Source of the DNA: Intestinimonas butyriciproducens
GTDB lineage: Bacteria > Bacillota > Clostridia > Oscillospirales > Oscillospiraceae
Reading direction: 5' to 3'
Length of the DNA: 64,000 nt
Assembly (NCBI RefSeq): GCF_004154955.1
Contig: NZ_CP011524.1
Span: forward strand, 2,232,001 to 2,296,000
The notes under the pieces: model-generated
Told to the model about the DNA's origin: nothing
What the model saw: the letters and a program-made list of their open reading frames with translations, nothing else
Databases searched by the model: none
Program-made: the position numbers and the translations under genes
Part shown: positions 1,436 to 43,910 of the stretch, one piece after another
Numbering within the stretch: position 1 is the first letter of the stretch
Layout of the letters: the number at the start of each line of letters is the position of its first letter

Positions 1436-2470
1436 TCAGTCCTCGGTGGTCTCCACCTCGCTGACGGTGGAGGCCATATCGCTGAACACGGCGTAATCGG
1501 CGCCCAGCGCGGCGGCGGTCTCGGTATTGACCGTGATGATGCCGCCGTCCATCACGTGGTACTCAGGCACCACGCCGGTCTGGAGTACCTCCAGCGCCAT
1601 ATCGGCGGTATAGGCTCCGAGCTCGGTGTAGTTGACGCCGCAGGTGGCAAATGCGCCGTTGCGGACGAAGGAATCGGCCCCGGTATAGTGGGGCACGTCC
1701 GCCTCAATGAAGGTCTCGGCAATGGTCAGCTCCACGGCCATCACGCTGTTGTCGGTGGGGGTAAAGACGGCGTCCGCCTCGCCTGCCAGGCTGGCCGCGG
1801 CGGCAATGATCTCATCCGGGTTGACACCGGTGCGCTCCACATAGGCGATTCCCTTGGCATCCAGGTATTCCTTGGCCTCGGCAATGGGCGTCTCGGAATT
1901 CGGCTCCGAGGGGGAGTACAGCAGGCCCACGGTCTGAATATCCGGGTCCTGGGCAAACATCATGTCCAGAATAAAGGCGGTGTTCAGAGCGTCGCTGGTG
2001 CCGGTGACCCGGTCGATGCCGGTGAGTCCCGCGGTGGCGGGGTCGCTGATGGCGGCGTAGATGATGGGGGTGCCCAGGTCCTCGGTGGCATTGACCATGC
2101 ATTGCGCCGCCAGGGTGGCGATGGGGATCACGGCGTCATAGCCCTCGCCGGCCACCTGGGCGCCGATCTGGTTGAGCAGGCTCTGGTCATTCTGGCCGTT
2201 GAACTCCGTATAGTCGATGGCGATGCCCAGCTCCGCCGCCTTGGCGTCCAGCTCGGCTTCCACCGCCTGGCGGATCTCGTCCAGGGAGGCGTGGTCCAGT
2301 TGCTGAACGATGGCGATCTTATACCCGGACACCCCCTGCCCGGTGGGCTCGGCGGTGTCGGCGGGCGCGTGAGTGGAGGAACCGGAGCCGGAGCCGCAGG
2401 CGGCGAGGGACAGGGTCAGCGCGGCGGCGGCGGTCAGAGACATGGTGTTCTTCAGATTCAGCTTTTTCAT
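1436..2470 (-). CDS. trpX: ABC transporter substrate-binding lipoprotein, tryptophan-type (TrpX-like)
   Basis: A 344-residue extracytoplasmic binding protein anchored as a lipoprotein: the signal peptide begins MKKLNLKNTM and ends at the lipobox LAAC near residue 25, followed by a Gly/Ser linker. The rest is a two-lobed periplasmic-binding fold of the COG2984 (ABC_sub_bind) family, with segments such as YKIAIVQQLDHASLDEIRQ and TNIP-like hinge regions. I chose ATG 2470 because it follows an AAAGGAG site; an upstream in-frame codon at 2545 lies inside the leader terminator. First gene of the operon, controlled by the T-box leader upstream. The leader has a UGG specifier, so the likely ligand is tryptophan or a precursor. 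Confidence 0.88.
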   Translation of the reverse strand: MKKLNLKNTMSLTAAAALTLSLAACGSGSGSSTHAPADTAEPTGQGVSGYKIAIVQQLDHASLDEIRQAVEAELDAKAAELGIAIDYTEFNGQNDQSLLNQIGAQVAGEGYDAVIPIATLAAQCMVNATEDLGTPIIYAAISDPATAGLTGIDRVTGTSDALNTAFILDMMFAQDPDIQTVGLLYSPSEPNSETPIAEAKEYLDAKGIAYVERTGVNPDEIIAAAASLAGEADAVFTPTDNSVMAVELTIAETFIEADVPHYTGADSFVRNGAFATCGVNYTELGAYTADMALEVLQTGVVPEYHVMDGGIITVNTETAAALGADYAVFSDMASTVSEVETTED

Positions 2471-2523
2471 TGTAGTTTTCTCCTTTTTTGAGTTTTGGGC
2501 GGCAGATGGAGCCAGCAGCATGT

Positions 2524-2811
2524 AAAAAAAACGCTTTTGTCCCATTTCTGGGACAAAAGCGTTTCAAAACACTTCTGCGATACCACCCAAATTGACGCTT
2601 GCGCGTCCACTCGCTTCACGCACCATCATGCGTGCCCGATGGATAACGGGTGGGGCCCCGTCGGCATCTACTGAGCGAAACCGCCTTTCAAGCCGCCCTC
2701 CGGAGTCCATTCGCCGGTTTCCGCACATCCCGATTCCACCATCCGGGACTCTCTAAAGATTGGAATGCACCGGGTACTTCTCTCCGTCACAGGTTTGATC
2801 GCTATTGCTTG
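2524..2811 (-). promoter_or_regulatory. T-box riboswitch leader with UGG (Trp) specifier
   Basis: On the minus strand the leader contains a Stem I whose 3' side reads GAATGGACTCCG. The codon TGG (2709-2707) sits where the specifier is expected, followed by A, and the flanks CGGAG and CTCCG pair. Downstream is the T-box sequence GGGTGGTATCGCAGAAG (from 2588). It ends in a 14-bp hairpin (2531-2562) with eight T. Uncharged tRNA-Trp would stabilise the antiterminator and switch on the transporter. The T-box reads TGGTATCGCA rather than the common TGGTACCGCG, a tolerated variant. Confidence 0.92.
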
Positions 2812-2817
2812 TAGGTT

Positions 2818-2846
2818 ATTATACGCAGAGCCGAGGCCATTGTCAA
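2818..2846 (-). promoter_or_regulatory. Sigma-A promoter of the T-box/trp transporter operon
   Basis: On the minus strand TTGACA (2846-2841), a 17-base spacer and TATAAT (2823-2818) form a consensus promoter. Its -35 box overlaps the stop codon of the neighbouring DMT transporter gene. Transcription should begin near 2811, at the 5' side of Stem I. Confidence 0.85.
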
Positions 2847-3757
2847 CCCTTTTTTTCCGTTTCAGCGGGCGTCTTTTTCCTCAGGAACTCAAACTTGGTC
2901 TCCGAGCACAGGACGGCCACAAAGATGAGCACAAAACCCAGCACCATCACGGCGTTGAGGTCCTCCTCCCCCACGACAATGGAGGCCAGCACGCCGAAGG
3001 GCGCCTCCAGGGACAGGAGGACCGCTGCGGTGGAGGGCGCGGTGTACTTCTGCCCGATGTTCTGGAACAGCAGCGCCCCGCAGGAAGAGAAGATCACCAG
3101 ATAGACCATGGCGAAGACGGCGCTCCCCGAAAGGTCCGTGGGGAAGGGTTCCCGGAAGAGGAGGGCCCCCACCCAGCTCCAGGCCCCGAAAAAGGCGAAC
3201 TGGAGGGTGGTGATGAGGAAGATGTCCCGCCCCTCGGCGTATTTGTTCACCGCCACGATATGGGCAGCAAAGAAGAACCCGCCCACCAGCGTGAGGGCGT
3301 CGCCGGAGTTGATGCTCAGCGCCCCGCCCTCGTTGGACAGGGAGACCATGCCGATGCCCACCACGCAGATAACGGCGGCCAGAATATTCCACTTGTCCGG
3401 ACGCTTGCGGGCGATGACCCAGTATAAAAAGGGGACGATGACACAATATACTGCCGTGAGGAAGGCATTCTTGCCCGAGGTGGTGCGGTCCAGGCCGAAG
3501 GTCTGGAAGGCATAGGCCAGGAAGAGCATGGTGCCGATAAGAAAGCCCGCCTTGAGGTAGCCGCGGTCCATCACCTTCCAGGACTTCCAAAACACCAGGC
3601 CCAGTACGACGGCGGCGGCGGTAAAGCGGAAGGCCAGCAGATAAAAAGGGGTAAAGCTGTCCAGCGAGTGCTTCATGACCACGAAGGAGGTGCCCCAGAT
3701 GATAGGGGCCAGGATCAGCATGGGCTTTGCCAACTTTTTCAGTACGGATTCGTTCAT
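2843..3757 (-). CDS. EamA/DMT-family transporter
   Basis: A 304-residue, ten-segment membrane protein of the drug/metabolite transporter superfamily with two EamA repeats. Typical landmarks are IIWGTSFVVMKHSLDSFTP in TM1 and YTAPSTAAVLLSLEAPFG near the start of the last repeat. The start at ATG 3757 (MNESVLKKLAK) follows a GGAGA-type site and gives the usual family length; longer in-frame extensions lack transporter features. It exports or imports an unknown small metabolite. Divergent from the 3-methyladenine glycosylase gene. Substrate cannot be assigned from sequence. Confidence 0.88.
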   Translation of the reverse strand: MNESVLKKLAKPMLILAPIIWGTSFVVMKHSLDSFTPFYLLAFRFTAAAVVLGLVFWKSWKVMDRGYLKAGFLIGTMLFLAYAFQTFGLDRTTSGKNAFLTAVYCVIVPFLYWVIARKRPDKWNILAAVICVVGIGMVSLSNEGGALSINSGDALTLVGGFFFAAHIVAVNKYAEGRDIFLITTLQFAFFGAWSWVGALLFREPFPTDLSGSAVFAMVYLVIFSSCGALLFQNIGQKYTAPSTAAVLLSLEAPFGVLASIVVGEEDLNAVMVLGFVLIFVAVLCSETKFEFLRKKTPAETEKKG

Positions 3758-3820
3758 GGGTTGTCTCCTCTCCCTTGCTATGGTAAGATGGTACATACTA
3801 CGCGGAGGAAGGTGGTCGCT

Positions 3821-4405
3821 GTGCCGAAATTGACGCGGGACTTTTATGAAAGGGACACCCTTCTGGTGGCCCGGGACCTGCTGGGCAAATATCTGGTGCA
3901 CCGGGTGGACGGTGTGCCGCTCTGCGGCCGCATCACCGAGACCGAGGCCTACATCGGCCGGATGGACAAGGCCTGCCATGCCTACGGCTACAAGCGGACC
4001 CCGCGGACGCAGACCCTGTTTTCTCCTCCCGGCACGGCCTACCTCTACCTCATCTATGGCATGTACCACTGCCTCAACTTTGTCACGGAGCCGGAGGGAG
4101 AGCCCTGTGCGGTGCTGCTGCGGGCGGTGGAGGCGGCGGAGGGCGCGGAGTTCATGGCGCAAAACCGGTTCGGCTGCGGTCTCTCGGCACTGACACCCTA
4201 TCAGAGGAAAAACTTTTTGAACGGCCCCGGCAAGGTGTGCCGGGCCTTTTCCCTGACCAGGGCGCAGAACGGCCTGGATCTCACGGGAGATACCCTCTTC
4301 CTCTGGGACGCAGGCGAGACTCCGGAACAAATCCATGTGGGAAAGCGGATCGGCATCGATTACGCCGAAGAGGCCGCCGATTTTCCTTGGAGGTTTTATC
4401 TATGA
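3821..4405 (+). CDS. 3-methyladenine DNA glycosylase (MPG/AAG family)
   Basis: A 194-residue base-excision-repair glycosylase that removes alkylated purines. The family pattern is clear: VARDLLGKYLVHRVDG at the N terminus, ETEAYIGRMDKACHAYG with the catalytic Glu, and LIYGMYHCLNFVTEPEG in the substrate pocket. The start is GTG 3821, preceded by GGAGGAAGG at eight bases; another GTG at 3812 is too close to that site. The stop overlaps the next start as ATGA, coupling it to the HAD phosphatase. Length is normal for bacterial members. Confidence 0.93.
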   Translation: MPKLTRDFYERDTLLVARDLLGKYLVHRVDGVPLCGRITETEAYIGRMDKACHAYGYKRTPRTQTLFSPPGTAYLYLIYGMYHCLNFVTEPEGEPCAVLLRAVEAAEGAEFMAQNRFGCGLSALTPYQRKNFLNGPGKVCRAFSLTRAQNGLDLTGDTLFLWDAGETPEQIHVGKRIGIDYAEEAADFPWRFYL

Positions 4406-5025
4406 AATTGTTTGACTTGGACGGCACCCTCATCGACTCCAATGGGATCTGGGTGGACGTGGACCTCCGTTTTCTCGGGCGCCACGGCCTTACCCCCACC
4501 GAGGAGTACACCTACGCCGTGGGCCACTCCATCTTTCCCGTAGCGGCGGAATTCACCAGGGACTACTACGGTCTGGACCTCACCCCGGAGGAGATCATGG
4601 AAGAGTGGCTCTCCATGGCCGGGAATGCCTACGCCCATGTCCCCATGAAGGAGGGTGCCCGGGACTATCTCTCCCGTTGCGCCCGCGGCGGGGAGCGCAT
4701 GGCCGTCGTCACCGCCTGCGTGCCGGCGCTGTGCCGAACCGCCCTGGAGCGCCACGGGCTCACAGACTGTTTTGAGGAGATCGTATTCGCCCAGGAGCTG
4801 GGGCTGGAAAAACGGGACCCGCAGGTCTACCGCATCGCCGCAGAGCGTTTCCGGGTCTCTCCCGAAGACTGCACGCTCTACGAGGACGCGCCTTCCAACT
4901 GTGCCGCCGCCCGGCTGGCCGGTATGACTGTGGTGGGGGTATACGACGCCTTTTACGATTCCTACCAGGAGGAGATGCAAAAAAACAGCGACCGCTATAT
5001 CCGCAGCTTCACCGAGCTGCTCTGA
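4402..5025 (+). CDS. HAD-superfamily phosphatase, beta-phosphoglucomutase-like
   Basis: A 207-residue HAD hydrolase. Motif I is FDLDGTLIDS at residues 4-13 with the nucleophile Asp. Motif II is the Thr in VVTAC, and motif III/IV ends with LYEDAPSNCAAARLAGM. The cap domain between motifs I and II is helical, as in PGMB/phosphoglycolate-type members. The ATG overlaps the glycosylase stop (ATGA). The substrate is probably a small phosphorylated sugar or nucleotide but cannot be read from the sequence. Confidence 0.88.
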   Translation: MKLFDLDGTLIDSNGIWVDVDLRFLGRHGLTPTEEYTYAVGHSIFPVAAEFTRDYYGLDLTPEEIMEEWLSMAGNAYAHVPMKEGARDYLSRCARGGERMAVVTACVPALCRTALERHGLTDCFEEIVFAQELGLEKRDPQVYRIAAERFRVSPEDCTLYEDAPSNCAAARLAGMTVVGVYDAFYDSYQEEMQKNSDRYIRSFTELL

Positions 5026-43349: not shown

Positions 43350-43403
43350 GAGCTCCCCCCTTGTCCGCCTGAGGTCAGGTCCGGCATCGGGGGAGCTTGT
43401 TTT
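43350..43403 (+). terminator. Terminator of spoVT
   Basis: AGCTCCCCC (43351-43359) pairs with GGGGGAGCT (43389-43397) around an inner loop, then TGTTTT. Confidence 0.7.
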
Positions 43404-43444: not shown

Positions 43445-43821
43445 TACAGCACAACCCCCCGGTCATCCGAATGTGACCGGGGGGCTACACGTGATTCTGG
43501 ATTTCGATCAAATTGGTTACCTCTGACTTTCTGCGGATTTTTAACGCGCCAAACATCCGGTGCCTTGGGGAAACGACCTTTGCTTGCAGTTACCACTCGT
43601 ACAACCAGTCGCACATTCGGTTCCGTCGTCTGCGATACTTCGCTGGAGGTTTGCCGTGTGCCTTCTCACGATCAGTGAGCCTTGTCAGGGAACTTGCGCT
43701 GCGGGGGTGGTTTTCCTTTGCCTCTGGACCTTCAACGCGGTGGACGCCGCCTAGGTTCGACGCCCGGTAAAGGGATTCGTGAGCTTTGCCTTAGTACATC
43801 GGACTCACCTCATCCTTTCTG
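43445..43821 (-). ncRNA. Candidate structured non-coding RNA, about 375 nt, unidentified
   Basis: A strong minus-strand promoter is followed by about 375 bases without a long reading frame or ribosome binding site, ending in a hairpin at 43484-43455 (CCCCCCGGTCA and its complement, then TTGTGCTGT). The interior contains pairings such as GTGAG/CTCAC, CTCAC/GTGAG and GCGGC-type stems near the 5' half. I checked it for the tell-tale motifs of RNase P RNA (GAGGAAAGTCC), tmRNA (tag and TTCGA arm), SRP RNA and T-box; none fits. Length is in the range of known housekeeping RNAs, so a divergent known family is possible. Confidence 0.55.
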
Positions 43822-43826
43822 GTTAT

Positions 43827-43855
43827 ATAATACAACATAATTGCAGTTTTGTCAA
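43827..43855 (-). promoter_or_regulatory. Sigma-A promoter of the candidate ncRNA
   Basis: On the minus strand TTGACA (43855-43850), 17 bases, TATTAT (43832-43827). The -35 is perfect. It lies 56 bases after the spoVAC stop on the same strand, with no terminator between. Confidence 0.82.
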
Positions 43856-43910
43856 GCTCTATTTGTAAGAAATTCTAAAAACTTATGTAGAGAGGGGACT
43901 TCCCCTCCCT

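Follow-up and report, generated by a model that had tools for sequence, protein, structure and literature searches.

A predicted family of structured RNA genes in Clostridia carrying a minigene at each end

A 64,000-nt stretch of the Intestinimonas butyriciproducens genome (the window) contains, on its minus strand, a predicted RNA gene with a very short open reading frame (ORF) near each end. The safest statement is that this locus appears to belong to a real RNA gene family, so far undescribed, that has a minigene at either end. Comparison among relatives establishes the gene, its conservation, both ORFs and the shared use of the same bases as stop codon and terminator stem, and the arrangement suggests an RNA whose making or stability may be controlled by ribosomes. 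The first-pass annotation had interpreted the locus as an independent, perhaps new, non-coding RNA. That interpretation holds in part: the RNA does look independent and perhaps new, but "non-coding" is probably wrong or incomplete because there are conserved mini-ORFs at both ends.

The whole gene spans positions 43445 to 43821 (minus strand), and its predicted transcript of approximately 375 nt would start at about 43820 and end just past a hairpin. The TTGACA-17-TATTAT promoter of the first annotation is of sigma-A type and is located at 43827–43855 (minus strand). It is the sole promoter-like site in the region, compared with 0.2 expected from shuffling, and it is conserved in relatives as TTGACA/TACAAT-like boxes with differing spacer sequences. 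Immediately upstream (43856–43884, minus strand) is an A/T-rich element, ATTTCTTACAAA, which resembles TTTTTCACAAAA within the genus and TTTTGTACAAAA in distant relatives; its position relative to the −35 box is recurrent, although single matches are weak compared with shuffles, and it may be a UP element or an operator. In distant copies (e.g., L162, L173 and L183), a TTTTGTACAAAA-like palindrome recurs approximately 7 nt before the −35 box, with a second A/T element approximately 23 nt further upstream. The palindrome is only suggestive since a score of 8/12 is reached by a third of shuffled sequences. On the opposite (plus) strand, a hairpin with a T-rich tail can be read directly from the sequence at 43351–43397; it lies outside the RNA gene and is probably the terminator of spoVT.

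The RNA gene region was scanned against Rfam 15, as the first-pass annotation had proposed, and gave no match to RNase P, tmRNA, 6S or SRP RNA: nothing reached the gathering threshold, and at E ≤ 10 only a chance match on the other strand was returned. Forty related loci likewise gave no gathering-threshold match for the RNA, and the matches at other positions of those loci were tRNAs, an rRNA fragment, SpF59 and Gut-1. The SpF59 match (a Streptococcus sRNA family) scored above gathering at 2033–2086 of a Flavonifractor-related contig (L012), and the Gut-1 RNA (72.6 bits; L130, 1821–1895) lies approximately 200 nt downstream of a copy. The only gathering-level match in the window was a T-box leader (98.2 bits) at 2546–2799 (minus strand). 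A divergent copy of a known housekeeping RNA was considered because two short stretches, GAGGAAAGUCC and CGGUAAACC, resemble RNase P RNA by eye. This explanation is extremely improbable: no Rfam model matches the window copy at E ≤ 10 or the related loci at gathering, and the canonical RNase P RNA (276 bits), 6S RNA, tmRNA and large SRP RNA are each located elsewhere in the genome. The likeness to RNase P RNA was therefore rejected. With its own promoter, broad conservation and no Rfam family, the RNA fits its first description as independent, of unknown class and perhaps new. Open-access papers were searched for the peptide MLDIKS and for RNA screens in Oscillospiraceae, with no result, and Oscillibacter, Flavonifractor, Faecalibacterium and Ruminococcus-type names are absent from two large screens of GC-rich intergenic regions.

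A DNA search covering 99 related genomes located the element in most of those belonging to the same genus, and parts were present in several further genera of the family. Intestinimonas relatives and many Oscillospiraceae retain the promoter, a structured body and both ends, and the 3′ domain is spread through the class Clostridia. At E ≤ 0.01, R1, a covariance model made from the 3′ domain, matched 148 of 400 family genomes and 36 of 394 from a sample across the order. A second model (R2), built from distant relatives only and with the window excluded, matched 54 of the 295 genomes searched in the order and 27 of the 391 searched in the class. With R2 the window copy is detected at E = 4e-5, which indicates that the window group and the distant group are related, with the E-values of both models to be read as rough. 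Outside Clostridia, R2 found no credible copy in 398 genomes drawn across the phylum; apart from the genome of the window itself, that sample yielded only marginal matches in two non-Clostridia genomes (L206 and L207), which were without the downstream ORF (ORF2, below) and were taken as false. A phage origin was also considered and rejected: a 20-base pattern matched 11 viral contigs, and every match was unrelated coding sequence.

Some genomes hold two to five copies; one of the 99 related genomes has two in tandem, and another genome (G634) has five. In same-genome paralogues, the promoter and the ends are common to all copies but the bodies differ. Five tandem copies with the same layout occur at 1464–4509 of one locus (L076, G239:C56), where bodies range from approximately 18 to approximately 150 nt and one copy consists of no more than ORF1, a short linker, ORF2 and the terminator. 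In L077, a full copy is followed downstream by two extra copies of the 3′ hairpin alone (1386–1440 and 1604–1658) at a spacing of 218 nt.

The first-pass annotation had also described a stem-forming body and proposed a search for covariation in homologues. The window sequence alone folds no better than shuffles (z −0.6), so the single-sequence fold is no evidence of structure, but covariation within the genus bears the description out. The Intestinimonas body is conserved in both sequence and structure, with 96.5% of cells paired, and 12 pairs are changed on both sides within the genus compared with 2.7 in shuffles and one to three when slid. Six of the 12 are in the terminator and the rest are in three body helices, one of them long-range. 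The body contains a covarying helix, GGGCGU/GCGUCC (43742–43765); a conserved hairpin, GCUCACUGA-UCGUGAG (43665–43680); a conserved stem, GCACACGG/CCGAAUGUGC (43611–43661), with an inner hairpin GCGA/UCGC at 43632–43643; and the long-range helix of CCGCGUUGAA with UUUGGCGCG, whose strands lie at the ends of the interval 43545–43740 and which has 87.5% of cells paired and two both-side-changed pairs (all minus strand). The bodies of distant relatives have other recurrent elements, ACACGRCGGUGU..AUAUAGAUU and CCUUUUG..UUCUCCUUAGAGAA..CAAAAGG.

The 5′ end of the predicted transcript is a Shine-Dalgarno sequence, SD1 (AGAAAGGAUGAGGUGAGUCC; 43801–43820, minus strand), which is an extended complement of the 16S rRNA 3′ end (GGAUCACCUCCUUUCU, confirmed in the same genome). 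The calculated duplex with the 16S tail has an energy of −19.1 kcal/mol, better than the best start of each of the 48 long ORFs in the window. In almost every copy, AGAAAG..GGUGAGUCC-N-AUG is found at a fixed distance past the promoter. The start codon opens a minigene, ORF1 (AUG UAC UAA; 43791–43799, minus strand). Among 90 copies, this frame stops within four codons in 79%, compared with 19% in the other two frames, and all three stop codons are used (UAA 38, UAG 19 and UGA 15). The AUG after SD1 is missing in a few copies (L084 and L086), and ORF1 is longer or absent in about a fifth; hence, it is common and not universal. As sequence signals, a Shine-Dalgarno site, a start codon, a stop within a few codons and conservation are all present, as would be expected of a minigene. 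Sequestration of SD1 by a helix (GUGAG/CUCAC) with the stretch after ORF1 was rejected: only 16% of copies beat shuffles at the 5% level.

A second Shine-Dalgarno site, SD2 (AGAAAGUCAGAGGUA; 43518–43532, minus strand; −12.6 kcal/mol against the 16S tail), lies approximately 290 nt from SD1 in the window copy. In the family, this site takes the form AGAAAG..GAGGU and is followed by AUG, UUG or GUG. It precedes ORF2, which in the window reads UUG AUC GAA AUC CAG AAU CAC GUG UAG (MIEIQNHV; 43485–43511, minus strand). The locus was first described as having a promoter, a hairpin end, sporulation gene neighbors, no recognizable RNA family and no reading frame; of these observations only the last fails, at 43791–43799 and 43485–43511, where the two conserved short ORFs each follow a Shine-Dalgarno site. 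ORF2 is 6–11 codons long, and its stop codon touches the terminator stem, either at the base or inside. R1 was built on nucleotides with ORF2 disregarded, so the 69 copies it found were not selected for ORF2, and nearly all contain it; shuffled ORF2 sequences retain such a frame in 2% of cases. The listed R2 copies, some of which enter the counts, were picked with a pattern that demands ORF2 and are therefore not independent evidence for it. In the 15 R2 loci that the pattern missed, ORF2 was present in 12, shortened in one, without its stop in one and unplaceable in one.

The RNA ends in a very strong GC stem, a terminator-like hairpin (43454–43486, minus strand) that starts at the ORF2 stop codon. 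It matches the hairpin end first proposed and covaries, although the U-tract that follows is poor in the window copy. In the distant set, the stem takes in the last ORF2 codon and the stop. The stop codons of 96 distinct ORF2s are UAG (41), UAA (32) and UGA (23), and in 39 copies the opposite strand was found to change along with the stop type (UAA-UUA 18, UGA-UCA 15, UAG-CUA 2, and the other four via G-U), indicating that stop function and stem pairing are preserved jointly. In L170, the ORF2 stop has become UGU and the terminator pairing is retained. In some relatives, a candidate helix that would pair codons of ORF2 with the stretch past the hairpin is visible by eye.

The main rival to a ribosome-loaded RNA is that the locus is a micropeptide gene, with the ORF2 peptide (M[LV][DE]IKSEQK-like, 6–11 amino acids) as its product and the minigene and body as a regulatory leader. 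The peptide reads MIEIQNHV in the window copy; near relatives have MVEIQNQK-like forms, and distant relatives have MLDIKSEQK-like forms. Across Clostridia, ORF2 is the best conserved part, SEQK recurs at the C terminus and synonymous variants exist (e.g., AAG TTA GAT TTG AAA and AAA CTA GAT TTC AAA). Change is greatest at third codon positions, but the pS/pN ratio is only 2.7, a modest value, part of which may reflect constraint on the RNA. Within Oscillospiraceae, the peptides diverge widely (MIEPQVEK, MENSSQK and MTKQEMVV) and yet the RNA ends persist, and the body, too, shows conservation and structure within a genus. We consider a micropeptide gene possible but on balance doubtful. The ORF2 peptides are short and hydrophilic, unlike the hydrophobic toxin of a type I toxin-antitoxin system. 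A promoter and a terminator of its own plus an encoded peptide, judged from sequence signals only, are features of a dual-function small RNA.

The strength of the two ribosome binding sites also raises the possibility of a decoy that stores, tethers or titrates 30S or 70S particles, with ORFs so short that ribosomes leave or idle quickly. The promoters look strong, the SD1 and SD2 sites both resemble AGAAAGnnGAGGU, and SD1 outdoes the long-ORF starts of the window. Such a decoy would, however, leave unexplained why stop codon and terminator covary, as well as the coding signal in ORF2 and the within-genus sequence conservation of the body; we regard it as unlikely.

A short ORF followed by a terminator is, as a layout, that of a translational attenuator, so the RNA could be the leader of a downstream gene. 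In the window, SpoVAC is encoded upstream on the same strand and the next gene is the convergent spoVT. The position beside these two genes, noted at first annotation, is correct for the window but not general, because relatives adjoin many different genes: spoVAC is upstream in 13 loci, all in Oscillospiraceae, and other loci have MetA-like, MreB-like or HemW-like neighbors (named by eye from their sequences). In the R2 set, 18 cases have a downstream gene oriented like the RNA and 19 have one on the opposite strand, with no recurrent family. As neighbors and their strands vary, the RNA is taken to be its own gene and not a leader, and a leader or attenuator function is highly unlikely.

We hypothesize instead a stand-alone, ribosome-loaded structured RNA in which the 5′ minigene protects the transcript and the terminator-embedded ORF2 lets translation control termination, a reading that we hold to be evenly poised between right and wrong. 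Its transcription, translation, protection, translation-gated termination and effector are all inferred from the layout and from the published behavior of such parts. SD1 would catch a ribosome as soon as it leaves the polymerase; that ribosome would read one or a few ORF1 codons and stop, thus shielding the 5′ end from nucleases. A ribosome that reached the ORF2 stop with the polymerase at the terminator would keep the hairpin open, and the RNA would not be released there; were none to arrive in time, the RNA would end at the terminator. Both the abundance of the RNA and its 3′ end would then indicate how easily ribosomes initiate, and the effector would be either the folded RNA or the peptide.

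Parts of this scheme have precedents. A minigene of two codons can increase expression in cis, possibly via RNA stabilization (PMC8708949); in the axe-txe leader, an AUG-codon-stop minigene with a Shine-Dalgarno sequence appears to protect its RNA in cis when translated, but it precedes a toxin gene, whereas the minigene described here opens a stand-alone RNA with no gene downstream. When a stop codon was moved to 5 bases before a terminator, termination fell from approximately 90% to under 10% upon translation (PMC4824070), and these measurements, together with the stop/stem layout, suggest that ORF2 translation should compete with termination of this RNA. Against this, termination repression in E. 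coli involved a long coding region, and an ORF of 9 codons leaves a ribosome little time in which to reach the polymerase. The ribosome-mediated attenuator of bmrCD also has a short ORF that ends at an intrinsic terminator, where translation can oppose termination (PMC4191407), but in our family there is no conserved downstream gene, and it is a family of its own with a structured body and a second minigene. VcdRP is a stand-alone, dual-function small RNA with a small ORF, but it encodes a 29-amino-acid protein and base-pairs with targets (PMC8672173), compared with ORFs of 1–11 codons here. The raiA motif (ModT RNA) is likewise a structured RNA of Clostridia and relatives found by comparison (PMC11706538); the present family differs in having no Rfam match and in being defined by two mini-ORFs. 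The odc1 motif also combines a structured RNA with a conserved very short ORF (an 11-amino-acid uORF), but it is a cis-regulatory leader (PMC8632094).

If the proposal is correct, a major class of gut bacteria contains an RNA gene family that has escaped notice because it fits neither the definition of a non-coding RNA nor that of a gene: the ORFs fall well short of the lengths that are annotated, and the body varies too much to be picked up by standard RNA searches. Such a family would offer a natural system for work on how minigenes are translated, how ribosomes protect RNA ends and how ribosome and terminator compete, with clear mutants available for testing.
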